Source: Lautropia sp. (lineage in GTDB: Bacteria; Pseudomonadota; Gammaproteobacteria; Burkholderiales; Burkholderiaceae_E). From it: a stretch of DNA of 15,855 bases. The stretch is from contig JACCRJ010000158.1 of assembly GCA_013813615.1 (NCBI GenBank), forward strand, positions 1-15,855. The letters are read 5' to 3'. The notes beneath the pieces were generated by a model. The model ran no database searches. It worked only from the letters and a program-made list of their open reading frames with translations, and was not told where the DNA came from. The translations under genes were made by a program, and so were the position numbers. Below are positions 4,682-15,855 of this stretch, one piece after another (positions within the stretch are counted from its first letter, which is position 1; each line of letters opens with the position of its first letter).

Positions 4682-6241
4682 GTGGACCGGATGCACACCC
4701 TTTACGAAGCGGTCGCGCGGCAGGCGCGACTTCGGCCGGATGCGCTGGCGCTTGCACATGCGCAGGGTCGCGTGACCTACCGCGAACTGCACCAGCTTGC
4801 GGCACGCGCCGCAGCCGGCCTTCGGGCGCGCGGCGTCGGCGCGCACGACGTCGTCGCGATCCAGCTGCCCAACTCGCTGCCCTTCGTGGTGTTACTGCTC
4901 GCAGCCGGGGCGGTGGGTGCCACGGTGCAGATGCTGCACATGCCTTACCGCCGTGCAGAATTATCGGCCCTGCTGCGCCACGGCAGGGCGAGCCTGTTCG
5001 TCGGACTGCCGGCGTTCAAGGACGAGACGCCGCTGGCCACCGTATCGTCGCTGGAGCTGGTGCGCCTGCTGGTATCCGGCGCGGAACAGGAGCAGCAGGA
5101 CGCCGCCACCGGCGGGTTGACCTGGAGCAGCCTGACGTCGCCGGATACAGAGGCGCCCGCCTTCCCGCCGGTGGATCCTGGCTCACGCTACGTGCTGCTG
5201 CACACCTCCGGAACCACCGCGGATCCAAAGGGCGTGCCGGTTTCGCATCACCAGTTCATCGGCAACGCCGCCGCGTCGATCGAACCCCTGCGGGTTCGCG
5301 CGGCGGACGTGATCCTCCCCGCCGCCCCGTTCACCCATCTCTACGGCCTGTTCGCCCTGGAGTTGGGCCTGCTGGCGGGCGCCGCCATTTCGCTGCTGCC
5401 CGCATTCACGCCGGCCGGCCTGCTGGAAAGCATCCGGCGCGACGGGGTTACCGCAGTCTTTGCCGGTCCGGCCCACTTCCGGCCGGTGCTGTCGATGACC
5501 GACGCCAAGGTGCTCGAGCCGCTGGCAGACGTGCGCCTGATCTGCCTGTCGGGAACCGCCGTCGCCACCGACCTGGCGCGGGCCGTCGAGGCGCTGATGT
5601 CGGACGGCAAGGTCATACAGCTCTGGGGCATGAGCGAGTTGCAGGCCGGAACCTACGGGCGGCCGGACGATCCGGAGGAGATCCGGCACCGCACAGCCGG
5701 CAGGCCCAGCCCGGGAACCGAGTTGCGCATCCGGACAGCTCACGGGGCCAGCGCGCCCGGCCGTACCGGAGCGCTGCAGGTGCGCGGCCCTTCCCTCTTC
5801 ACCGGCTATCTCGATGATCCTGCCGCGACCGCCGCAGCCTTCGAAGACGGCTGGTTCAATACCGGCGACCTCGGCTACCTGACGCCCGACGGCGCGCTGG
5901 TGCTGACCGGCCGCATCAAGGAGATCATCAACCGCGGCGGCATCAAGTTCAATCCGCTGGATGTCGAGGCAGTCATCGACACCCTGCCGGGCGTGGTGCG
6001 AAGCGCGGTGGTGCCGATGCCGGATCCGGTGCTCGGCGAGCGGGCCTGCGCCTTCGTGCAAGCCTCGTCCGCATTGACGCTGGAGCAGGTGAGCGCCGCG
6101 CTGGATCAGGCCGGGATCGCACGCTACAAGTGGCCCGAGCGGCTGGAGATGGTGGAAGAGATGCCGATGACGCCGACCCAGAAGATCATGCGCGGCCGGC
6201 TGACGGCGCGCTTCAGGAAAGCAGGGGGAGACCACGAATGA
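4682..6241 (+). CDS. AMP-dependent acyl/aryl-CoA ligase (ANL superfamily)
   Basis: A 519-residue adenylate-forming enzyme that activates a carboxylic acid as an acyl-adenylate and transfers it to CoA. The core motifs are in order: phosphate-binding loop HTSGTTADPKG (174-184), LWGMSE (314-319), TGDLG (394-398), the hinge TGRIKE (409-414), and the C-terminal PTQKIMRG (498-505) with the adenylation lysine Lys501. Length is normal. The GTG at 4682 is preferred because GAGGTGA (4663-4669) lies about 12 bases upstream; an ATG at 4691 (residue 4) is the alternative. Its stop overlaps the GST start by 4 bp. The likely substrate is the aromatic or fatty acid imported by the neighbouring transporter, but specificity cannot be read. 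Benzoate-, cinnamate- or medium-chain-CoA ligase are all possible. Confidence 0.9.
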   Translation: MDRMHTLYEAVARQARLRPDALALAHAQGRVTYRELHQLAARAAAGLRARGVGAHDVVAIQLPNSLPFVVLLLAAGAVGATVQMLHMPYRRAELSALLRHGRASLFVGLPAFKDETPLATVSSLELVRLLVSGAEQEQQDAATGGLTWSSLTSPDTEAPAFPPVDPGSRYVLLHTSGTTADPKGVPVSHHQFIGNAAASIEPLRVRAADVILPAAPFTHLYGLFALELGLLAGAAISLLPAFTPAGLLESIRRDGVTAVFAGPAHFRPVLSMTDAKVLEPLADVRLICLSGTAVATDLARAVEALMSDGKVIQLWGMSELQAGTYGRPDDPEEIRHRTAGRPSPGTELRIRTAHGASAPGRTGALQVRGPSLFTGYLDDPAATAAAFEDGWFNTGDLGYLTPDGALVLTGRIKEIINRGGIKFNPLDVEAVIDTLPGVVRSAVVPMPDPVLGERACAFVQASSALTLEQVSAALDQAGIARYKWPERLEMVEEMPMTPTQKIMRGRLTARFRKAGGDHE

Positions 6242-6924
6242 TCGAGATGTGGGAACTCGTCGGCGAGAACGACCGCCGCTACAGCAATTTCTCGTGGCGT
6301 ATCCGCATGGCCTTGCGTCACAAGCAGCTGGAGGTGCAATACCGGCCCGTACTGCTCACGGACAAGGCAAGCATCGGGTTCTCCGGCGGCAAGACCGTGC
6401 CGGTGATCCGAGACGGCGACACCGTGGTGCGGGACTCGTGGGCGATCGCAGAATACCTCGAAAGGCAGTATCCGGACAGGCCGACCCTGTTCGGCGGCGA
6501 CACCGGGCAGGCAGTGGCCCGCTTCGCCAACAACTGGGTCGACCGCACCCTGCTGGCGATCGCCTTCCCGCTACTGGCCGGCGATGCACTCGCGGTGCAG
6601 CGCGGGGAGGACCACGACTATTTTGCAGCACTGATCGAGCGCCTCACCGGCCTCACGCCGCCGGCCCTGAAGGAGCATCAGGGCCGCAACGCGGAGCGCC
6701 TCGCCAAAGCCGTCGACCCGGCGCGCGCGACCCTGAAACGGCAGCCGTTCCTCAGCGGAAACAGCCCGGCGTATGCGGACTATGCGCTGTTCTCGATCTA
6801 CCAGTGGGCGCGGATCGTCTCGCCGCTGGACCTGCTGGCGGACGATCCGGCGATGCGGGACTGGTGCGACCGCCTGCTCGACCTGAATGGCGGCTTCGCC
6901 CGGGACACCCCCGCCTTTCGCTGA
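6238..6924 (+). CDS. Glutathione S-transferase family protein, LigE/beta-etherase-like
   Basis: A 228-residue soluble GST. The N-terminal thioredoxin-like domain shows SNFSWRIRMALRHK (16-29, candidate catalytic Ser16 or Ser19), the cis-proline VPVI (54-57) and the gamma-Glu-binding DSWAIAEYLE (66-75). The C-terminal helical domain contains YADYALF and DDPAMRDWCDR. The runs DSW-IAEYL--YPDRP-LF and DDP-RDW-DR resemble, from memory, the Sphingobium lignin beta-etherase LigE and fungal Ure2p-like GSTs more than ordinary detoxifying GSTs. The ATG overlaps the ligase stop by 4 bp (ATGA), so the two are translationally coupled and probably act on related compounds. Possible roles are ether cleavage, isomerisation or glutathione conjugation; I cannot choose between them. 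Confidence 0.85.
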   Translation: MIEMWELVGENDRRYSNFSWRIRMALRHKQLEVQYRPVLLTDKASIGFSGGKTVPVIRDGDTVVRDSWAIAEYLERQYPDRPTLFGGDTGQAVARFANNWVDRTLLAIAFPLLAGDALAVQRGEDHDYFAALIERLTGLTPPALKEHQGRNAERLAKAVDPARATLKRQPFLSGNSPAYADYALFSIYQWARIVSPLDLLADDPAMRDWCDRLLDLNGGFARDTPAFR

Positions 6925-6959: not shown

Positions 6960-8180
6960 TCACTTCATGTTGCAGTCCTGGACGTAGGCGTCGCCGTGCA
7001 TCTTCAGGATCGGCTCGCCCAGCGTCTTGTTGATCAGCCGGCCGCTGGCGTCCTTGGTGATGCCCCGCAGATAATAGTTCTGGATCGGGAACTGATTGGT
7101 GTTGAACTTGAGGTCCCCGCGCACCGATTTGAAGTTCGCCTTCATCAGCGCCTGGCGCAGGGCTTTCTTGTCGTCGAGCCTGCCTTTGACGTCGCGCACG
7201 GCCGCATCGATCATCAGCGCGGTGTCGTAGCCTTGTGCGGCAAACACCGACGGCAGCCGGCTGTACTCCTTCTCGAAGGCCGCGACGAACTTGCGGTTCG
7301 CCTCGTTGTTCAGGTCCATCGCCCAATGAGCCGTGTCGAAGATGCCGGCCATCGCGTCGCCCACCGGTCGGATCACGTCCTGGTCCGACCCGAAACCCGG
7401 TGTGAGCAGTTGGGTGTCTTTGGAGAGGCCGGCACCGACGAACTGCTTGATGAAGTTGATACCCATCCCGCCCGGCAGGAAGGCGTACAGCACCTCCGGC
7501 TTCGCCGCGCGGATCGCGGCGATCTCGGCCGCGTAGTCTAGCTGCCCCAGGTTGGTGTAGACCTCGTTGACGACCGTCCCCTTGTACATCCGCTTGAAGC
7601 CTGCCAGCGAGTCCTTGCCGGCCTGGTAGTTGGGCGCGACCAGGTAGACGTTCTTGATGCCCTTGCTGGTGGCGTACTGGCCGGCTGCCTCGTGGTAGGC
7701 GTCGTTCGGCCACGCGGCAGCGAAGAAGTAGGGATTGCAGCTCTTGCCGGCCAGCGGCGACGGCGCCGCATTCGGGCTGATGTAGATGGTTTCGCTGCGA
7801 AACGCTTCCGGCACCCCTGCCATCAGCACGTTGGAGAACACCACCCCGGTGAGAAAGTCCACCTTGTCGCGCTTGATGTTCTTCTCGAAGAGCTGCTTGC
7901 CGACGTCGGGCTTGAACTGGTCGTCGCCGATCAGCACCTCAGCCGGCAGGCCGCCGAGCTTGCCCCCGTTCATTTTCACCGCCAGCATGAACGCGTCGCG
8001 GATGTCCACGCCGAGGCTCGCCGACGGACCGGACAAGGTGCTGATGAAGCCGACTTTGACGGCATCCGCCGCGGCCGCCGGCTGCATGGCACCGGCCAGC
8101 GACAGTGCTGCAGCGGCCATCAGTGCTGTCACCGGCCGTCTCGATCCCCAAGTCCCGAAGCCCCCGAAGCTCGCGTCCAT
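6960..8180 (-). CDS. Periplasmic substrate-binding protein of a branched-chain/aromatic-acid-type ABC importer (LivK-like)
   Basis: A 406-residue type I periplasmic binding protein (Peripla_BP_6 family). A signal peptide is visible: a long N-region with Arg-Arg at 14-15, a hydrophobic core at about 18-31 and an AAAA cleavage site near residue 38. The mature protein then opens VKVGFISTLSGPSASLGVDIRDAF, the hallmark of this family. A GGGAG ribosome-binding site (8187-8191 region) precedes the ATG. The protein captures a small solute for a LivHMGF channel. Such a channel lies in the neighbouring operon, which lacks its own binding protein, so the two probably form one importer. The gene is the last of the kinase-enolase-dioxygenase cluster and 88 bp after the beta subunit. 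A CATAAT on the minus strand (8207-8212) could give it an extra weak promoter. Confidence 0.92.
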   Translation of the reverse strand: MDASFGGFGTWGSRRPVTALMAAAALSLAGAMQPAAAADAVKVGFISTLSGPSASLGVDIRDAFMLAVKMNGGKLGGLPAEVLIGDDQFKPDVGKQLFEKNIKRDKVDFLTGVVFSNVLMAGVPEAFRSETIYISPNAAPSPLAGKSCNPYFFAAAWPNDAYHEAAGQYATSKGIKNVYLVAPNYQAGKDSLAGFKRMYKGTVVNEVYTNLGQLDYAAEIAAIRAAKPEVLYAFLPGGMGINFIKQFVGAGLSKDTQLLTPGFGSDQDVIRPVGDAMAGIFDTAHWAMDLNNEANRKFVAAFEKEYSRLPSVFAAQGYDTALMIDAAVRDVKGRLDDKKALRQALMKANFKSVRGDLKFNTNQFPIQNYYLRGITKDASGRLINKTLGEPILKMHGDAYVQDCNMK

Positions 8181-8268: not shown

Positions 8269-8916
8269 TCAGACCCAGGCCTGCAGGACGTAGTCGTACG
8301 CAGCCTGGCCGTTCATCATATCGACCCGCTGCAGACGGATCCGCAATCCGTCCGGTGTGCGCACCAGCCGGTGCCGATAGGTGCCGCCGAAATGCCGGAC
8401 ATGGTCGCGGCGCATCTCCATCATCTGGAAGCGCGAATAGACGACGATCTCCTGCGCCCCGGGTTGGGCGGATTCGATGATGAGGTTGCCGACGAGATGG
8501 TTGGTACCCCACATCGGGGCCTGCGACCAGGCATTGGGGTGGCTCAGCCGCCCCATCCGGATTTCCATCATCAACTTGTCCTCGGCGAAGATCGACGGTT
8601 CGGAAAGCCAGTCCGTCTGGCTCGGCTCGACCGGCATCCAGTAGACGCCGTCCTCCTCGAACAGGTCGATCCATTCCTGCCAGCGCTTCGCATCCAGCAA
8701 CGCAGCCTGCCTGAAGAGCAGCATCTCCACCTCCTGCCTGAGCAGCGCGGCATCCATGCCGGTCAGCGCCGCGCCAGCCGGCGGCACGTACATCGTCGGC
8801 GACTCGACGCCCCGTCCGAGGTGGTTCGGGGCGATCGAGTCGGCGCCCGTCATCGACTCCACCGCTTCGATCACGACGCTCTTGCCAAGCGCCTGGTCCA
8901 CATGCTTGCGTTCCAT
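8269..8916 (-). CDS. Ring-hydroxylating dioxygenase beta (small) subunit
   Basis: A 215-residue protein of the aromatic-ring-hydroxylating dioxygenase beta family (NTF2/SnoaL-like cone fold), the structural partner of the Rieske alpha subunit. The conserved stretch LLDAKRWQEWIDLFEEDGVYWMP (starting about residue 73) and the C-terminal pattern HFGGTYRHRLVRTPDGLRI are characteristic. The first 50 or so residues are extra compared with most beta subunits, whose homology would begin near Met54. The upstream ATG at 8916 is nevertheless preferred: GGGAG (minus strand, 8922-8926) sits 5 bases before it, while Met54 has no ribosome-binding site. It starts 13 bp after the alpha stop, so the pair should be made in equal amounts. 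Confidence 0.9.
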   Translation of the reverse strand: MERKHVDQALGKSVVIEAVESMTGADSIAPNHLGRGVESPTMYVPPAGAALTGMDAALLRQEVEMLLFRQAALLDAKRWQEWIDLFEEDGVYWMPVEPSQTDWLSEPSIFAEDKLMMEIRMGRLSHPNAWSQAPMWGTNHLVGNLIIESAQPGAQEIVVYSRFQMMEMRRDHVRHFGGTYRHRLVRTPDGLRIRLQRVDMMNGQAAYDYVLQAWV

Positions 8917-8929
8917 GGCTGCTCCCGGC

Positions 8930-10225
8930 TCAGGCCGAAGGGGAAAGGTAGTCGCGCCAGGCGCGGAACTGGTTGCGCATCACGACTTCGGAGGTGCCGT
9001 TGTTGGAGAAGAGCACTCCGTCCTTCTCGGTGTCCCCGCCGACGTTGCGATGAAAGCTCACCCAGTCGCCGCCGTTGGACTGCAGGCCTTTCTGGGCGCG
9101 ATTCCAGTTCTCGAGGTCGTCCGCATTGACCATCGTCGCCGGGGAATTGACCAGGTTGTAGTACCAGAGCGAGCGCCGGTAGATCGCTTCCGGCACACCC
9201 TTCAGCCGGAAGTGCCAGATCTCGGACAGCGTCTTGTCGGCGGAGATGGGTCGCAGGCAGCGCAACTGCTGCAGGGGCGACTGCACCGACAGGTACGGAT
9301 ACACCAGCACGTGATGGATGCTTCGGGACAGGTACTCCTCGGCCCTCTCCTCGCCGTAGGCCTGCTTCAGCAGGTTCTCGTGCTCGAGCGTGTCCGGGTC
9401 GGTCGGGCGAAGGCCCATGTAGGCTTGCAGGATGCCGTGGCCGTGCGGCAGGTTGATCGTCTGGACCGAGTCCCACTGCGCGAAGCTGGACGCGAAGGCG
9501 GAAAGATAGTGAAGGTAGAGCGGCGCGCTGCCCTGCTCCTTCTTCACCCGTTGCTCGATCCGCCGCGCGGAGACCCCGGTCGACTGATGGGTCACCGACG
9601 GGTGCAGCGCGTCGAGCTGGTTCTCCATGAAGAATTTCCAGTTGGAATGCTGGATCACCCGATGGCAGACCGGAACCACTTCCACCTCGCCGACCGGCGA
9701 GCGGTCGCACATGTCGTCGAACGCGACCTTGGCGTCGCCGAGGAATTCGAGCAGGCTGGGCCCCTCCGGCACCAGGCTTGCGAACACGAAGCCCCGGTAG
9801 CTGTCGACCCGGGCGGCAGCCTTCATGCTGCAGTCCGGGTTGTCGGTTGTCATGCGCGTGCCGTCGTACCCCTGCTTGAGCGGGATCGCGCGCACGCGGC
9901 CATCGAGATGGAAGGTCCAGGCATGGTACGAGCAGACGAAGGCATTTCCGGTGTTGCCTTTCTGGTTGCCGCAGACCTGCACGCCACGGTGCGGGCAACG
10001 GTTGTAAAGGACATGGATCCTGCCGTCACGGTTGCGCACCATCAGCATCGGCTGCCGGCCGATGGTCACGGCGTGGTAGTCGCCGGCGTTCGGCACCTGC
10101 GAGGCATGTCCGCAATAAACCCAGATGCGCTCGAAGATGTTGTCCATCTCCTGCTCGAAAATTGCCGGGTCGGTATAGCACCGCCGATGCACGCGATCGG
10201 GTTCAACCAGCTGATCGAGGTCCAT
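8930..10225 (-). CDS. Rieske ring-hydroxylating dioxygenase alpha (large, catalytic) subunit
   Basis: A 431-residue catalytic subunit that inserts dioxygen into an aromatic ring or related substrate, receiving electrons through its [2Fe-2S] cluster. Rieske ligands are Cys77-x-His79 and Cys98-x2-His101, with 18 residues between His79 and Cys98, slightly longer than the usual 15-17. The mononuclear iron site has the bridging Asp205 plus His208 and His213 (ENQLDALHPSVTH), and the third ligand is Asp369 or Asp370 (NADDLENW). The start at 10225 is supported by GGAAGAG just upstream; the longer open frame runs into the enolase gene and is not coding. It is followed by its beta gene and preceded by the enolase-like gene at 77 bp. 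No ferredoxin or reductase gene is in the window. The substrate is unknown; salicylate/benzoate-like acids are plausible from the overall pattern. Confidence 0.93.
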   Translation of the reverse strand: MDLDQLVEPDRVHRRCYTDPAIFEQEMDNIFERIWVYCGHASQVPNAGDYHAVTIGRQPMLMVRNRDGRIHVLYNRCPHRGVQVCGNQKGNTGNAFVCSYHAWTFHLDGRVRAIPLKQGYDGTRMTTDNPDCSMKAAARVDSYRGFVFASLVPEGPSLLEFLGDAKVAFDDMCDRSPVGEVEVVPVCHRVIQHSNWKFFMENQLDALHPSVTHQSTGVSARRIEQRVKKEQGSAPLYLHYLSAFASSFAQWDSVQTINLPHGHGILQAYMGLRPTDPDTLEHENLLKQAYGEERAEEYLSRSIHHVLVYPYLSVQSPLQQLRCLRPISADKTLSEIWHFRLKGVPEAIYRRSLWYYNLVNSPATMVNADDLENWNRAQKGLQSNGGDWVSFHRNVGGDTEKDGVLFSNNGTSEVVMRNQFRAWRDYLSPSA

Positions 10226-10302: not shown

Positions 10303-11616
10303 CTAGGGCAACGCTGGGTGCTGCCGGAGAGGCATCCATGAACAGCCGGCAAAAGCGGCACTGCTGCCCAGGCCCTGCTCGATCCGGATCAGCTCGTTCC
10401 ACTTCGCCATCCGCTCCGACCGCGAAAAGGACCCGACCTTGATCTGGCCGGCGTTCCAGCCGACAGCCAGGTGCGCAATGGTGAGGTCTTCGGTTTCTCC
10501 CGATCGGGCCGACACGATGGTGCCCATGCCCGCCGCCCTGGCGGCCCGCAGGGCGGCGCCGGTCTCGGAGACGGTTCCTGCCTGGTTCACCTTGATCAGC
10601 GCCGCGTTGACGTGGCCACCGGCCGCAGCCTGCTCGATGCGGGCGGCATCGGTGACGAGGAAGTCGTCTCCGATCACCTGCACCGTGGCACCGATGGCGG
10701 CGGTGAAGCGGCGCAGCCCCTCCGGATCGTCCTCGGCGAGGGGATCTTCCACCGAGACGATCGGATAGCGCCGGCACCAGCCGAGCAGCAGGTCGCAAAG
10801 CCCGTCCGTGTCCAGCTCCCGCGATTCCAGCCCCAGCCGGTACCGACCCTTGGCGCCGAACTCGGACGCAGCGACGTCGAGCGAAATCGCAACCTCCGCT
10901 CCCGGCACGAAACCAGCGGCCTCGATCGCCTTCACCAGGGTCTCGAGCGCCTCTTCGTTGCTGGCGAAGACCGGCCAATAGCCGCCCTCGTCGGCCACGC
11001 CTTGCAGGCGACCGGTCTCGGCCATGATGCGGCCGGCAGCGAGGTACACCTCCGCGGTCATCTCGATGGCCTGCTCGAAAGACGTCGCAGCAATCGCCAT
11101 CACCATCAGGTCCTGGATATCGATGCGCCGCCCGGCATGCGCACCGCCGCCAAAGATCTGGATCTCCGGCATCGGCAGGCTGACCGGCGCGCCATCGGCC
11201 AAATATTGCCACAGCGGCACGCCGGCGCTGGCGGCCGCGGCATGAAGCGTGGCGATGGACACCGCAACGATGGCGTTACCGCCGAGGCGGGACTTGTTCG
11301 GCATGCCGTCCAGGTTGATCAGCCGCTCGTCGATCTCAGCCTGCTCTGCCGCATCCATGCCGGTCAGCGCGGGCATGATTTCCGCAGCGATGCCCGCGAG
11401 CGCCTCCTTCACGTCGTGGCCCCCCAGCCGCGTGCCGCCGTCGCGCTTGTCGACCGACTCGTTCCTGCCTCGGGAGGCGCCGGCCGGGGCGATCCCGCGG
11501 CCGACGCTGCCGTCGTCGAGCCACACCTCGGCCTCGATGGTCGGGCGGCCGCGGGAATCCCAGACACGTCGGCCGTAGACGTCCACTATTTCACTGCTGC
11601 GTATCACGCTGTTCAC
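10303..11616 (-). CDS. Enolase paralogue with altered active site
   Basis: A 437-residue full-length homologue of enolase, which dehydrates 2-phosphoglycerate to PEP. Aligned by eye with yeast enolase, it keeps the metal ligands (Asp247, Glu290, Asp317), the catalytic Lys342 and Lys393, Glu210 (Glu211), His160 (His159) and the phosphate-contact Arg371-Ser372. It differs at Asp169 (Glu168), Ala370 (His373) and the mobile loop AGASRG (45-50), where Ser36 and Thr40 are Ala and Arg. The altered positions cluster on the C3-OH side of the substrate. The GTG at 11616 lies inside the kinase gene. A second GTG at 11607 (residue 4) has GGAG about 8 bases upstream and may be the true start. Its place between a kinase and a Rieske oxygenase argues against housekeeping glycolysis. 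A carboxyphosphonoenolpyruvate-synthase-like side function is another possibility. Confidence 0.88.
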   Translation of the reverse strand: MNSVIRSSEIVDVYGRRVWDSRGRPTIEAEVWLDDGSVGRGIAPAGASRGRNESVDKRDGGTRLGGHDVKEALAGIAAEIMPALTGMDAAEQAEIDERLINLDGMPNKSRLGGNAIVAVSIATLHAAAASAGVPLWQYLADGAPVSLPMPEIQIFGGGAHAGRRIDIQDLMVMAIAATSFEQAIEMTAEVYLAAGRIMAETGRLQGVADEGGYWPVFASNEEALETLVKAIEAAGFVPGAEVAISLDVAASEFGAKGRYRLGLESRELDTDGLCDLLLGWCRRYPIVSVEDPLAEDDPEGLRRFTAAIGATVQVIGDDFLVTDAARIEQAAAGGHVNAALIKVNQAGTVSETGAALRAARAAGMGTIVSARSGETEDLTIAHLAVGWNAGQIKVGSFSRSERMAKWNELIRIEQGLGSSAAFAGCSWMPLRQHPALP

Positions 11617-12610
11617 TCCAAGAATCTGCGACGTCGGCCAGGCGCACCACCGGTTGCTCGAGAAGCCGGCGCGCCGACTGCCTCACCCGCTCGCGGCTCG
11701 GCTCGTCCACCAGGTACTCGACCGGCGACTTGCCGTCGACCCGCGCCAGCGAAAGGCCAGGCAGCAAGGCCGCACAGCGGGCCTCGAACGCGTCCGGCGG
11801 CTCCCAGGACACATTTTCCAGGTAGGCGTGCGCCAGCCGGTCGAAGCACGCCCGGTAGCGGGTTTTCCATTGTGGCTTCCAGGCGCCTTTGAGCAACAGG
11901 TGATTCAGACAGAAGGCGAGATCGAAGGCAGGATCGCCATACCAGGCACATTCGGCGTCCAGGAACACCGGCCCGGTCGGGCCGCACAGGATGTTTTTCG
12001 GGCTGACGTCCCCGTGCACCAGCGCCAGCCGGGTGGCGAGGGTGGTGGCGGCAATCTCCTCCAAACGGTCAGCAAGGTCCGGATGCCGGGCGGCTGTAGC
12101 GCGCAGGTAGGGCTCGATGCGGATCGGCTCGAACGTCGCGTCGTTGGCGAAGAGGGAGGCGAGGTCGGCGCGGTTGGCGCTGTGCCGATGGATCTGCACC
12201 AGCCGCGCGCCGACTTCGGCGGCAAAGCCAGGCTCGATCCGCCCGTCGCGAAGCTCGTTTTTCCAGACCGGATAGCGCTGCGGCGCCAGGAACTCCATGG
12301 CGAACAATCCCTGCGCCGGGTCCTCCCCCAGCAGGTCCGGAACGCTGTCCGGAAGCCACTGGGCCACCGTCCGGATCCAAGCCGCTTCTGCCGCGTTGCG
12401 CTCCACCGGTGCCTCCCACAGCGCCGCTACCTTCAGCCGGGGGAGCGCCCGCTTGATGCAGAACCGCCGCCCGGCCACTTCCGCCAGCAGGATGTCCGAC
12501 GAAACCCCGCCGGTCAGCGGCATGAACTTCGGTACCTCACCATGTGCCACCAGCCCCAGCCTGCGCAGCGATTCGAGCACCTGCGGCAGCTTGTCCATGG
12601 TCTGGCTCAT
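11591..12610 (-). CDS. APH-fold small-molecule kinase (phosphotransferase family)
   Basis: A 339-residue cytoplasmic kinase of the aminoglycoside phosphotransferase/choline kinase fold. Visible elements are the nucleotide-binding loop LTGGVSSDI (32-40), the ATP-contacting Lys53 in FCIKRAL, the catalytic loop HGDVSPKNIL (199-208, with Asp201 and Asn206), and the metal-binding DAE (218-220), followed by WYGDPAFDLAF (223-233). The fold phosphorylates hydroxyl groups on diverse small molecules. Nothing points to antibiotic resistance here. Its end overlaps the enolase-like start by 17-26 bp, so the two are translationally coupled and its product is a good candidate substrate for that enzyme. A weak AGGG lies 3 bases before the ATG; Met5 (12598) is an alternative start. 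It follows the RES toxin gene by 63 bp on the same strand. Confidence 0.85.
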   Translation of the reverse strand: MSQTMDKLPQVLESLRRLGLVAHGEVPKFMPLTGGVSSDILLAEVAGRRFCIKRALPRLKVAALWEAPVERNAAEAAWIRTVAQWLPDSVPDLLGEDPAQGLFAMEFLAPQRYPVWKNELRDGRIEPGFAAEVGARLVQIHRHSANRADLASLFANDATFEPIRIEPYLRATAARHPDLADRLEEIAATTLATRLALVHGDVSPKNILCGPTGPVFLDAECAWYGDPAFDLAFCLNHLLLKGAWKPQWKTRYRACFDRLAHAYLENVSWEPPDAFEARCAALLPGLSLARVDGKSPVEYLVDEPSRERVRQSARRLLEQPVVRLADVADSWSEQRDTQQ

Positions 12611-12673: not shown

Positions 12674-13378
12674 TCAGTCCGTCTGCTCGTAGACGCCGGA
12701 GAAGCGACTGCCGTCCCAGGCGTAGAGCAGGTAAGCGCCATGGATGCAGTTGCGCGCGGCCTTCGGCCTGAAAAGCCCGGCGCAATGGCCCCCGGGCTGG
12801 CGGACACTGCGGTAGGCGACGCCGTTTGCGCCGCTGGCTCGCAGGGCAGCGCCGACCTGGCGCGACACCAGGTAGTTGTCCGGATCATTGACCTTCGGGT
12901 CGACGACACCGTCCAGCCTCAGGTCATGGAGCTTCGTGTCGATGTCGACATGGTAGAGGCGCATCGGCAGGTGCATGGACCCCTCGCCGGTCGCCGCCAG
13001 GAAGCGGCCGTGGTGGTAGCGGGTCTCCGCGATAGCGGTCGCCCTGTCCTTGCCGGCGTAGAACACCCCGAAACTGCCGTCGGAGAAGCGGCTGCCGTCG
13101 GGGTTCAGGTGGGTGAACGCCGCCATGATCGGACCGCTGCCGGGGCCGAGGAGGCGGTCCTCCGGCGGGACCAGTTCTATCCTTCCGACCTCGTCGCGGA
13201 TCCGGTCGTTGGTCAGCGACTCGAGCGCGTAGAGGGCCTCGAAATCCTCCGGATCGGCCACCCGGTCGAACAGGAAGACGCTCGGATGGCGAGTAGGCAC
13301 GATCCTGAACGCCGGCTGCCAGCGGATGCGCCGCACCGGTATCCGCGTCAGCGCCGGGTCGGCGGCCGGATGCTTCAT
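12674..13378 (-). CDS. RES-domain toxin (MbcT/ParT-like)
   Basis: A 234-residue RES-family protein, an ADP-ribosyltransferase-like fold. Known members kill or arrest cells by degrading NAD+ (MbcT, Res) or by ADP-ribosylating Prs (ParT). The three name-giving residues are visible: Arg97 in GSRFSDG, Glu118 in TAIAET and Ser191 in YRSVR, with Tyr107 in GVFYAG between them. All are intact, so it should be active. Its ATG overlaps the antitoxin stop by 4 bp (ATGA at 13375-13378), and antitoxin first is the usual Xre-RES order. The longer upstream open frame overlaps the antitoxin and is not coding. Confidence 0.9.
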   Translation of the reverse strand: MKHPAADPALTRIPVRRIRWQPAFRIVPTRHPSVFLFDRVADPEDFEALYALESLTNDRIRDEVGRIELVPPEDRLLGPGSGPIMAAFTHLNPDGSRFSDGSFGVFYAGKDRATAIAETRYHHGRFLAATGEGSMHLPMRLYHVDIDTKLHDLRLDGVVDPKVNDPDNYLVSRQVGAALRASGANGVAYRSVRQPGGHCAGLFRPKAARNCIHGAYLLYAWDGSRFSGVYEQTD

Positions 13379-13818
13379 GACCAGCCGCCACCCCTTGCCG
13401 CATCCATGTAACGCCGCACCGCATCGAGGTCGCTGACATTGCCGCCGAGCATGCGGTCGAGCGCCGAGCGGTCGGCGAACATCGGAGCGGCATTCGGTTT
13501 TCTGACCCAGGCATCGGCAACGGCCGGATCCGGAAAGAGTATCTGCAGCGCCTTGTAGATCCCCAGCAGGTTGGAGATGCGCTCCAGCGTGTCTTTGGAC
13601 AGGCTGGCCCGCTCCGGATGCTTGCGCCAGGCGAAGAAGGTGGACCGCGCCGGCTCGCCCAGAAGGAGCAGCTGCTCCTCCACGCTGAGCCCCCACAGAC
13701 CGGCCAGGCGGGTGAACGCCCGGATCCCGGCGGCACCGAGCTGCGAAGGCGAGGGTTCCCGCTGGCTTTCTGCGGCTTGGGTCGTCATGGCGTTGCCGGC
13801 GTCGCGGAGCCACTTCAT
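13375..13818 (-). CDS. Xre/MbcA/ParS-type antitoxin of the RES module
   Basis: A 147-residue antitoxin. The N-terminal half (to about residue 85) carries the helix-turn-helix-like region of Xre-type partners (LSVEEQLLLLG followed by STFFAWRKHPE). The C-terminal half has the toxin-binding MbcA/ParS (DUF2384) pattern ISNLLGIYKALQILFPDP...WVRKPNAAPMF, ending in a short tail that would plug the RES active site. It should neutralise the downstream toxin and repress the operon. The frame stays open to a GTG at 13839, but that codon overlaps the -10 box. The ATG at 13818 is therefore chosen; another ATG at 13788 is possible. None has a strong ribosome-binding site. Confidence 0.87.
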   Translation of the reverse strand: MKWLRDAGNAMTTQAAESQREPSPSQLGAAGIRAFTRLAGLWGLSVEEQLLLLGEPARSTFFAWRKHPERASLSKDTLERISNLLGIYKALQILFPDPAVADAWVRKPNAAPMFADRSALDRMLGGNVSDLDAVRRYMDAARGGGWS

Positions 13819-13822
13819 CGGT

Positions 13823-13856
13823 GGACTAAATACGTACACTAGTCCATGTCCGGACT
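13823..13856. promoter_or_regulatory. Operator half-sites of the RES-Xre operon
   Basis: GGACTA (13823-13828) and TAGTCC (13840-13845) form an inverted repeat with an 11-bp spacer. A third half-site, GGACT (13852-13856), is inverted relative to AGTCC (13841-13845) with 6 bp between. They straddle the -10 and spacer of the antitoxin promoter. That is the expected position for autorepression by the antitoxin or antitoxin-toxin complex. Confidence 0.55.
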
Positions 13857-13879: not shown

Positions 13880-14899
13880 TCAGGCGGTGCGGCGGCGGAC
13901 GAGTTCGAAGCCAAGATCCACGGTGCTGGCCGCGCAGCCTTCTCCGGCCACCAGCGCCAGCAACAACTCTGCCGCGACGACCCCCATCCGGTAACCCGGG
14001 ATCCGCACCGTGGTCAGCGCCGGTGTCACGATCGAGGCGATGTCGAAGTCCCCGAAGCCGACGACGGCCAGGTCTTCCGGCACCCGGCGCCCGTGCTCCC
14101 CTGCCACCTGAAGCAGACCGCAGGCGAGCAGGTCGTTGGCGCAGAAGACGGCGTCGATGCGAGCACTGCCGCACAACAGCCTTTCTGCCGCCGCCCGCGC
14201 CTCGCCGATCATCATGGCGTTCTCCACGAAGGCGTCGATCGGACGGCGCAGCCCGGCCTCCTGCGCCGCCTTGCGGAAGCCTTCCATGCGTTTGTGCGAA
14301 CGATGCTCGCGCGCCGGCTGGGTGCCGATGAAGCCCCAGTGACGGCGCCCCAGCGCGGCCAGCATCTTGCCCACCGCCCTGCCCGCCGCGCGGTTGGAGA
14401 AGCCGATCGACAGTCCCAGCGGCTCGCGGCCGAGATCCCAGATCTCGGCGATCGGCAGGGCGTGCGCCACCACCAGGTCCCGAGTGGCCCGATCATGCTC
14501 GACGCCGGTGAGCACCAGCGCGTCTACTCCCCTCGCGATGAACGCCTCGACGAGGGACCGTTCGTTGCGCACGCTGTAGCCGCTATCGCCCAGCATCAGC
14601 TCGAAGCCGGCACCGCGCAGCCCGTCCGACAAGCCCTGCAGGGTCCCGGCATAGACGGAATACGACAGCGTCGGCACCACGGCCGCAACGATCCGGCTGC
14701 GCCGTGAGGCGAGCGACCGCGCACTCCCGTTGGGCAGGTAACCGAGCTCGTCGACCTTGGCGAGGATCTGCTTCAGCGTTTGCGGATGCAGGCGGTGCGG
14801 TTCGCGCAGTGCCCGCGATACCGTCATCGCCGAGACGCCGGCGGCAGCCGCGACATCCGCCAGGCGAGGCCTGCCGGATGGTGCACCGTAACTTGACAT
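13880..14899 (-). CDS. LacI-family transcriptional repressor, GntR-like subgroup
   Basis: A 339-residue regulator. The N-terminal helix-turn-helix reads RLADVAAAAGVSAMTVSRAL (12-31), followed by the hinge region LGYLPNGSARSLAS (52-65). The rest is a periplasmic-binding-protein-like effector domain (about 68-335). The AMTVSRALR and LGYLPN pattern resembles the gluconate repressor (GntR) branch of the family. GGGAG (minus strand, 14908-14912) precedes the ATG. The gene is divergent from the PhyH-type oxygenase, and a TGTTAGCGCAAACA site in the gap fits GntR-like operators. It therefore most likely represses that oxygenase and perhaps itself, with release by a sugar-acid-like or other small ligand. 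Control of the kinase-dioxygenase operon is unproven; I saw no matching site there. Confidence 0.92.
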   Translation of the reverse strand: MSSYGAPSGRPRLADVAAAAGVSAMTVSRALREPHRLHPQTLKQILAKVDELGYLPNGSARSLASRRSRIVAAVVPTLSYSVYAGTLQGLSDGLRGAGFELMLGDSGYSVRNERSLVEAFIARGVDALVLTGVEHDRATRDLVVAHALPIAEIWDLGREPLGLSIGFSNRAAGRAVGKMLAALGRRHWGFIGTQPAREHRSHKRMEGFRKAAQEAGLRRPIDAFVENAMMIGEARAAAERLLCGSARIDAVFCANDLLACGLLQVAGEHGRRVPEDLAVVGFGDFDIASIVTPALTTVRIPGYRMGVVAAELLLALVAGEGCAASTVDLGFELVRRRTA

Positions 14900-14973: not shown

Positions 14974-15855
14974 ATGATCAGCGAACAAGATGCGGCGTTC
15001 TATCGTGAGAACGGATACCTGGTCGTCCGCGACGTGCTGAGCGCCGGTCAGTTGAAGACGTTGCGCGACGCGGTGGCGGAAATGCTGGCCGGCGCGCAGG
15101 GCTTGACCGCCAACAGCGAAGTTTACGACCTCGAAGACAGCCACACGCCGCAGGCGCCCCGCGTGCGCCGCCTCAAGCTGCCGCACAGGAACCATCCGGC
15201 GTTCGGTGAACTGATCCGGTCCTCGACCCTGATCGACCTGATGAGACCGCTGCTGGGCCGCAGCATCCGCCTGCAGACTTCCAAGCTCAACCTCAAGTCG
15301 GCCGGCTACGGCGCGCCGGTTGAATGGCACCAGGACTGGGCCTTCTACCCGTACACGAACCAGGACGTGCTCGCCCTCGGAGTGCTGCTGGACGATTTCA
15401 AGGAAGACAACGGCGCGATGATGGTGGTGCCAGGCAGCCATACCGGTCCGGTCTACGACCACCATTCGGGCAGGCGCTTCTGCGGCGCCATGGATCCCGC
15501 CATCACCGGCTTCGATTTCAGCAAGGCCGTCAAGCTGCTGGCGCCCGCCGGCTCCATCACCCTGCACCACGCCCGCACGGTCCACGGCTCGGCACCGAAC
15601 CTGTCCGGCGCCTCGCGCAACTTCCTGCTCTATGAAGCCATGGCGGCCGACGCCTGGCCCCTGGCGGGAACTTTCGGCCCCTTTACCGACCTGGAGGAAT
15701 TCAACAGCCGGCTGCTCTGCGGCGAATCCACCCTGCAGCCGCGTCTCGAGGCGGTGCCCGTGCGGATGCCCCTGCCCAAGCCGCTCGATCCCTCCTCGCT
15801 CTACCAGAGCCAGAAGGGGCTGGGCCACCGCTACTTCGAACCGGTCAAGGCCTGA
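14974..15855 (+). CDS. Phytanoyl-CoA dioxygenase (PhyH) family Fe(II)/2-oxoglutarate oxygenase
   Basis: A 293-residue non-haem iron oxygenase that hydroxylates an unactivated carbon using O2 and, normally, 2-oxoglutarate. The facial triad is His119-Gln-Asp121 (VEWHQDW) and His204 in TVHGSAPN; Arg215 in SGASRNF is the expected 2-oxoglutarate contact. A second conserved segment is LDDFKEDNGAMMVVPGSH (140-156). GGAGAA (14962-14967) lies 6 bases before the ATG at 14974. An earlier in-frame ATG at 14929 falls at the predicted transcription start and inside the operator, so it is unlikely. The stop codon is the last three bases of the window, so the gene is complete but its downstream neighbours are unseen. 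The substrate is unknown. Family members act on acyl-CoAs, ectoine, mitomycin- and fumitremorgin-type compounds. Confidence 0.9.
   Translation: MISEQDAAFYRENGYLVVRDVLSAGQLKTLRDAVAEMLAGAQGLTANSEVYDLEDSHTPQAPRVRRLKLPHRNHPAFGELIRSSTLIDLMRPLLGRSIRLQTSKLNLKSAGYGAPVEWHQDWAFYPYTNQDVLALGVLLDDFKEDNGAMMVVPGSHTGPVYDHHSGRRFCGAMDPAITGFDFSKAVKLLAPAGSITLHHARTVHGSAPNLSGASRNFLLYEAMAADAWPLAGTFGPFTDLEEFNSRLLCGESTLQPRLEAVPVRMPLPKPLDPSSLYQSQKGLGHRYFEPVKA

Follow-up and report, generated by a model that had tools for sequence, protein, structure and literature searches.

Enolase proper is, to our knowledge, usually regarded as a single family that catalyses a single reaction, and the annotated records examined here name the proteins described below eno or phosphopyruvate hydratase. 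A stretch of 15,855 nucleotides from Lautropia sp. (contig JACCRJ010000158.1), referred to here as the window, raises the question of what reaction is carried out by an enolase homologue in which part of the active site has been exchanged. A preliminary description of the window had proposed that this protein acts on a substrate that still carries a phosphate and a carboxylate and differs from 2-phosphoglycerate at C3, with a neighbouring Rieske oxygenase as a clue to an aromatic origin. That description did not include the gene of an APH-family kinase, which proved to be the constant partner of the enolase variant.

The locus

The genes of the minus strand encode, in order, a LacI-type regulator, an Xre-RES pair, an APH-family kinase, the enolase-family protein, the Rieske oxygenase subunits and a periplasmic binding protein (Table 1), and beyond the binding protein there are also branched-chain amino-acid type ABC-transporter genes (named by eye), an AMP ligase and a thioesterase. 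The enolase open reading frame gives 437 aa when counted from the GTG at 11616, but a second GTG at 11607, with GGAG ahead of it, looks the likelier start; as this lies inside the last codons of the kinase gene, the two overlapping genes are probably translated together. The LacI-family protein is a possible regulator of the cluster, and LacI genes also adjoin the kinase-enolase pair in two other loci, L129 and L134 (compared loci and genomes carry L and G numbers). The RES-Xre toxin-antitoxin pair (12674-13839, minus strand) is not part of the kinase-enolase module; relatives of both of its genes are found downstream of the module in L126. PhyH genes occur in three further module loci (L036, L043 and L047).

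Table 1. Features of the window, with positions and the basis of each name
Feature	Position	Strand	Remarks
Enolase variant	10303..11616	-	Asp169, Ala370, Ala208, Val394; likely start GTG at 11607
APH-family small-molecule kinase	11591..12610	-	PF01636, 57.5 bits; directly upstream of enolase, overlapping; constant partner
LacI-family regulator, gluconate-repressor-like	13880..14899	-	NF052440, 287.9 bits against a cut-off of 400
RES-domain protein, toxin of RES-Xre pair	12674..13378	-	PF08808; between regulator and kinase
Xre/MbcA/ParS antitoxin of RES pair	13375..13839	-	PF09722, PF20432
Rieske oxygenase large subunit	8930..10225	-	PF00355, PF00848; local neighbour, not conserved with module
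Ring-hydroxylating oxygenase small subunit	8269..8916	-	PF00866; local neighbour
Periplasmic binding protein of ABC importer	6960..8180	-	PF13458; local neighbour
PhyH-family dioxygenase	14974..15855	+	PF05721; divergent from LacI gene
GST-like ORF	6238-6924		Name read from sequence by eye; beyond binding protein

An enolase with an altered pocket

Membership of the enolase family is clear, the protein scoring 471 bits against TIGR01060 (eno; curated cut-off 300), with PF03952 and PF00113 spanning nearly the whole chain and with an enolase fold. His160, Glu210, Asp247, Glu290, Asp317, Lys342, Arg371-Ser372 and Lys393 are kept, which amounts to the metal ligands, the lysine base, the Glu211-type acid (Glu210) and the phosphate contacts of a phosphopyruvate hydratase, whereas the catalytic Glu168 and His373 are replaced by Asp169 and Ala370. 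The yeast numbers are those that we take to correspond (Glu168 to window 169, His373 to window 370). On all these points, a full-length chain with most catalytic residues in place and Asp and Ala at the two exceptions, the preliminary description was right.

The extent to which the exchanges are fixed was judged from 94 kinase-linked enolases and 46 housekeeping enolases of the same phylum; one locus is counted twice, L034 being a duplicate of L047 that was kept in the 85- and 94-row counts, and six enolase matches of less than 380 aa were dropped. Position 169 is Asp in 94/94 kinase-linked proteins and Glu in 46/46 housekeeping ones, and at position 370 the kinase-linked set has Ala (92) or Gly (2) where all 46 housekeeping enolases have His. 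Gly208 and Thr394, present in every housekeeping enolase, give way to Ala (93) or Cys (1) and to Val (91) or Ile (3) respectively, position 401 is Glu throughout the kinase-linked set as opposed to 44 Asp and 2 Glu, and Trp occupies position 214 in 89/94 where the housekeeping proteins have Ala (46/46). The metal ligands, Lys342, Lys393, His160, Arg371 and Ser372 are invariant in both sets, and Glu210 is found in 93/94 kinase-linked enolases, the sole exception being a Lys in L130. The mobile loop of the window protein does read AGASRG as first described, but its arginine is not a defining trait of the family, position 49 being Arg in only 35 and Thr in 52 of the 94.

The catalytic residues of yeast enolase are given as E168, E211, K345 and K396 in PMC4922564. 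For the Mycobacterium tuberculosis enolase, section 2.3 of PMC10619443 records that alanine mutants other than S42A were non-functional, Glu163-to-Ala among them; by our own mapping Glu163 is the counterpart of yeast Glu168, the published mutant being Ala and Asp a milder change.

It could be held that the window protein is an ordinary second enolase whose pocket changes reflect neutral drift or a structural role, as the fold and most catalytic residues are kept. Enolases often moonlight. This reading is nevertheless highly improbable, because every one of the 94 kinase-linked proteins, one of them haloarchaeal, has the changes, and because the linkage to the kinase is near-perfect; the fixed loss of the Glu168 and His373 equivalents together with a kinase companion makes a spare glycolytic enolase unlikely. 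Both exchanges shorten side chains beside C3 and would leave room for a C3 substituent.

The kinase partner

The PF01636 score of the partner kinase lies well above the cut-off of 23.2 bits, a domain shared with methylthioribose kinase and other APH-family small-molecule kinases, and the nearest solved sequences are 2pyw and 2olc (methylthioribose kinase, E about 1e-11). Against the methylthioribose kinase model TIGR01767, however, it reaches 55 bits where the cut-off is 275, and it forms a separate, tight family of its own with ARVDGKSPVEYL and LDAECAWYGDPAFDLAF motifs (alignment A1). A Pfam scan at E 0.001 returned PF01636 and a sub-cut-off PF03881 match and neither of the glycerate kinase class I/II domains (PF02595, PF05161). 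The three glycerate kinase classes set out in the available portion of PMC2063504 include no APH-family enzyme.

When the kinase alignment was scanned against one genome per species (tblastn, E 1e-3) at least 564 stretches were found, and in the best 80 of these the enolase variant is present in 76, of which 72 have both genes on the same strand with no more than 255 bases between the match ends. In three of the four kinase loci without an enolase the contig stops 129, 125 and 1 bases past the kinase, and the fourth (L078) has no enolase in the 1631 bases that follow the kinase. The enolase of L072 lies 2.6 kb downstream, and the bins of L072 and L078 are both acidobacterial ('sponge-type' being a guess from the bin name). 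The same association is seen when whole genomes are compared, with kinase and enolase variant occurring in the identical 15 of 41 genomes (the window's own and 40 relatives) and the kinase absent from the remaining 26 at E 1e-20. It is also seen on plasmids: 31 plasmid records have the kinase, and each of the 12 that were inspected has an enolase in the stretch, including those of a Rhodococcus and of the haloarchaeon Haladaptatus. The counts show that the enolase variant, whose altered C3 pocket is fixed, goes together with an APH-family kinase. Since the two accompany each other in many bacteria of soil and water, they probably act in turn on a hydroxy acid, the kinase phosphorylating it and the enolase variant dehydrating it.

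Distribution and phylogeny

Relatives of the enolase variant are held by 14 of the 40 related genomes, 13 of them at 55-68% identity and one (G014) at 47%. Of 139 further genomes sampled across the class one match stands out at 63% identity, and a 52% match was found in G157. The loci are mostly from Alpha- and Betaproteobacteria, with Acidobacteriota and others in addition, and this patchy distribution makes horizontal movement probable. In a quick unrooted tree a branch with SH-aLRT support of 99 has the 16 housekeeping rows all to one side, and the window protein, which sits among the kinase-linked rows, lies outside the sampled housekeeping enolases, in keeping with the preliminary description. 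A distant kinase-linked set, comprising L045, Rhodococcus L128, Haladaptatus L131 and Methylobacterium L133, shares Asp169, Ala370, Ala208 and Glu401 and is housekeeping-like at the other positions; these four rows take an intermediate position, and a branch of support 100 groups them with the housekeeping rows. As the root is arbitrary and every housekeeping row belongs to the order of the window's own genome, the Asp/Ala pocket may have arisen once or twice.

Two divergent homologues were met with. In L130 (7268-18957), on plasmid pE20191216 of Enterobacter chuandaensis, a highly divergent enolase of 35% identity, whose annotation is hypothetical protein, combines Asp169 and Gly370 with a Lys at the Glu211 position, and its gene is divergent to that of a phosphotransferase. 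The genes that follow are those of a U32 peptidase, an aminotransferase, an M14 peptidase, an MFS protein and a nucleotidyltransferase, and the region looks like a small-molecule biosynthetic cluster with a further kinase-enolase pair. The other is a third enolase homologue of G033 (L046:9282-10478, minus strand; 37% identity), which with Ser160, Arg169, Ala210, Glu247, His317, Thr342 and Asp371 has lost most catalytic residues and, to judge from these, is not an enolase by chemistry; no kinase relative was found in the 19.5 kb L046 locus.

Housekeeping enolases and glycerate kinases

All 14 other module genomes carry a second enolase of 44-47% identity (two of them as partial matches); these are taken as housekeeping enzymes, residues having been checked for G014 (L025). 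Second enolases are also present in G211 and G215, and eight congeners have one enolase each, 44-46% identical to the window protein. The second eno gene for which the preliminary description had asked is found in the related genomes with the module, but in the window's own assembly (G000), a draft bin of 720 contigs that is 82% complete, no second eno was found. The eno of the congener G005 is flanked by kdsA and hsp33 (our own reading of the names), and both of these likewise have no match in G000, so that, an empty search being by itself no evidence of absence, an assembly gap is likelier than a true absence and the missing gene does not tell against a specialised function, as the preliminary description had allowed that it might.

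Of the 14 other module genomes 12 have a MOFRL glycerate kinase, as do 20 of the 26 that lack the module; in the window's own genome there is a partial match to a class I glycerate kinase but none to MOFRL. There is no trade-off between module and MOFRL kinase, and the idea that the module replaces a missing glycerate kinase is rejected.

Neighbours of the pair

Same-strand neighbours were tallied by Pfam family separately for loci with Arg or Lys at position 49 (113 of 120 neighbours scanned) and for those with Thr or another or unknown residue (125 of 166), and among the best 25 of 113 and 133 families respectively there is no constant third gene and no constant downstream enzyme. The partner met most often after the kinase is a D-2-hydroxyacid dehydrogenase (15/125 neighbours in the latter loci, 4/113 in the former), which resembles glyoxylate/hydroxypyruvate reductases at scores below every cut-off. 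Counted by locus it occurs in 24/52 with Thr49 and 4/37 with Arg/Lys49, whereas a sugar-pathway set (8/37 against 3/52), EamA (7/37 against 0/52) and PhyH (4/37 against 0/52) are commoner with Arg/Lys49. This contrast, from which L034, L130, L136 and three rows with neither Arg/Lys nor Thr were left out, is exploratory and serves as a lead only, the thresholds having been chosen after the data were seen and the sequences being related. A mixture is possible, in which the Thr49 type acts on glycerate-like acids and the Arg49 type on larger acids.

Several operons have the appearance of acid-sugar pathways. A RraA-like aldolase is encoded in L052, L054 and L073, together with a split GD_AH (galactarate/altronate-type) dehydratase in the first two. 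In L084 (3011-6956) the pair is followed by genes for a 2-hydroxyacid dehydrogenase, a four-carbon acid-sugar kinase, PdxA and a nitronate-monooxygenase-family protein (by Pfam), and the same set is found in L097 from 10270 onwards, with the nitronate-monooxygenase-family gene assigned by similarity; in both loci two different kinases are encoded within one operon. L129 has an SDR, a sugar ABC importer and a FAH gene that scores 342 bits against 2,4-didehydro-3-deoxy-rhamnonate hydrolase (cut-off 500), and relatives of this hydrolase context are seen in L134 and L136. No dehydratase is annotated in the L129 and L134 operons. In Roseibium a gene of the mandelate racemase family lies, by annotation, some 13 kb from the kinase-enolase pair, and in Paracoccus a UxaA pair lies some 20 kb away, so that a dehydratase could lie elsewhere in the genome, which would count against a dehydrating role for the pair. 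In L042 and L044 a ketopantoate-reductase-like gene takes the place of the D-2-hydroxyacid dehydrogenase, just upstream of the kinase (ApbA_C in 2/125 scanned neighbours). Operons of the acid-sugar type repeatedly encode a protein of some 260 residues on, or close to, the upstream side of the kinase (L036:7508-8293, L052:6008-6781, L054:5957-6760, L073:7205-7978); the L054 copy gave no Pfam match and the protein is hydrophobic by eye.

The aromatic origin once suggested, a C3-aryl or otherwise aromatic-derived 2-phosphoglycerate analogue, has a Rieske oxygenase in its favour in the window. Aromatic context also exists in some relatives: an HpaD-like ring-cleavage dioxygenase near the pair on a Rhizobium plasmid (L127; 272 bits, below its cut-off of 321; annotated VOC there and in L138) and, by similarity, on Cupriavidus and Paraburkholderia plasmids, and a UbiD gene beside the pair in L100. 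Further along L138, P450 and ferredoxin genes are annotated. Against this, among 94 distinct loci the window and a single other have a Rieske large subunit close to the pair (the other at 32% identity; flanks of up to about 10 kb were used and many contigs are shorter), and aromatic genes are missing among the recurrent neighbours (best 25 of 113 and 133 families). A Rieske-linked aromatic substrate is rejected as a general answer and the aromatic reading as such appears distinctly improbable, although that part of the original proposal in which the substrate keeps a phosphate and a carboxylate and differs at C3 fits the residues.

Proposed function

The best explanation of these observations is a two-gene catabolic module, patchily spread and separate from glycolysis. 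Specifically, the kinase is proposed to phosphorylate O2 of a (2R)-2,3-dihydroxy acid and the variant enolase to expel the 3-hydroxyl, with a C3-extended substrate such as an acid sugar; we put the probability of this reading at roughly 0.45. In many loci the neighbouring 2-oxo-acid reductase would make the (2R)-2-hydroxy acid and the APH-family kinase would convert the dihydroxy acid to the 2-phospho acid. The enolase variant, whose metals, Lys342 base and Glu210 acid are intact, would then take the C2 proton and expel the 3-hydroxyl to give a phosphoenol acid, the shorter Asp169 and Ala370 making room for a carbon substituent at C3; its substrate would thus be a glycerate with a lengthened chain, such as a C4-C6 acid sugar or a similar compound, and not 2-phosphoglycerate. 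A C3-extended acid would thereby become a 3-deoxy-2-oxo acid in its enol-phosphate form, to be taken over by aldolases and the SDR-FAH pair, and the two proteins would amount to an ATP-using acid-sugar dehydratase that feeds 3-deoxy-2-oxo-acid pathways. That kinase and remodelled enolase act as a phosphorylation-driven dehydratase, stripping the 3-hydroxyl from C3-substituted 2-hydroxy acids to yield substituted phosphoenolpyruvates, is advanced a shade more tentatively.

An important consideration is whether the substrate might be glycerate itself, formed from hydroxypyruvate or another source, in which case the APH kinase would be a new D-glycerate 2-kinase and the enolase variant, with altered kinetics or regulation, would form PEP from 2-phosphoglycerate. 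The order of reactions would be that of the known route of the serine cycle and glycerate pathway (reductase, 2-O-kinase, enolase). On two Rhizobium plasmids (L127:5139-8943 and L138:12140-15943), and in no other compared locus, PEP carboxylase heads an operon with a 2-hydroxyacid dehydrogenase and the kinase, and it is present in the known route as well. As glycerate would yield PEP, such a neighbour would favour glycerate; together with the glyoxylate/hydroxypyruvate-reductase likeness of the dehydrogenase beside many pairs it fits plain glycerate and PEP and counts against the C3-extended reading. The TIGR01060 score is also well over its cut-off, and glycerate could be the shared end product of very varied pathways. 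On the other side, the module kinase is without the class I/II domains of the known route and the enolase pocket is altered, the loss of Glu168 and His373 being absolute in the kinase-linked set, and a normal enolase with Ala at the Glu position is non-functional according to PMC10619443. It is these residues, together with the second enolase of 14/14 genomes and the MOFRL kinase of 12/14 (and the class I match in the window's own genome), that lead us to prefer a C3-extended acid, and glycerate is regarded as the chief alternative, though a less likely one.

A different departure from glycolysis would be one in which the kinase phosphorylates a 3-X-lactate, X being a group other than hydroxyl, and PEP is formed when the variant enolase removes X. 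In enolase the altered residues surround the leaving hydroxyl, and a PEP carboxylase adjoining the kinase would use the product. This is rather improbable, since Glu210, the acid that protonates the leaving hydroxyl, is kept in 93/94 and no X-handling gene is prominent in the neighbour tallies (best 25 of 113 and 133 families).

Comparison with known systems and significance

The window protein differs from enolase as ordinarily understood (TIGR01060, PF00113 and PF03952) in its Asp for Glu168 and Ala for His373, in its Ala208, Val394 and Glu401, in having its own kinase partner and in forming a branch apart from the 16 housekeeping rows. The acid-sugar dehydratases of the mandelate racemase group also abstract an alpha-proton beside a carboxylate, lose the 3-hydroxyl and feed 2-oxo-3-deoxy acids, but act on the free acid without a kinase; the window protein is an enolase proper, with MR_MLE_C at only 29.7 bits (cut-off 29.4). 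Carboxyphosphonoenolpyruvate synthase, an enolase homologue recruited for another reaction in the bialaphos pathway, is likewise enolase-like but belongs to secondary metabolism. No description of a kinase-enolase module was found among the matches listed from the open-licence literature.

A conserved, kinase-coupled enolase in which two key pocket residues are exchanged would show functional branching of the enolase family. If the proposal is correct, annotation would have to be corrected for at least 76 loci and perhaps for several hundred, given that there are at least 564 kinase-relative stretches of which the best 80 were examined, and the module would indicate a catabolic step that pathway maps do not yet include. 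Should the phosphorylation-driven dehydratase prove true, it would mean that there is a widespread second catalytic function within enolase proper, at present named phosphopyruvate hydratase, and that this function spans Proteobacteria, Acidobacteria, Actinobacteria and haloarchaea.
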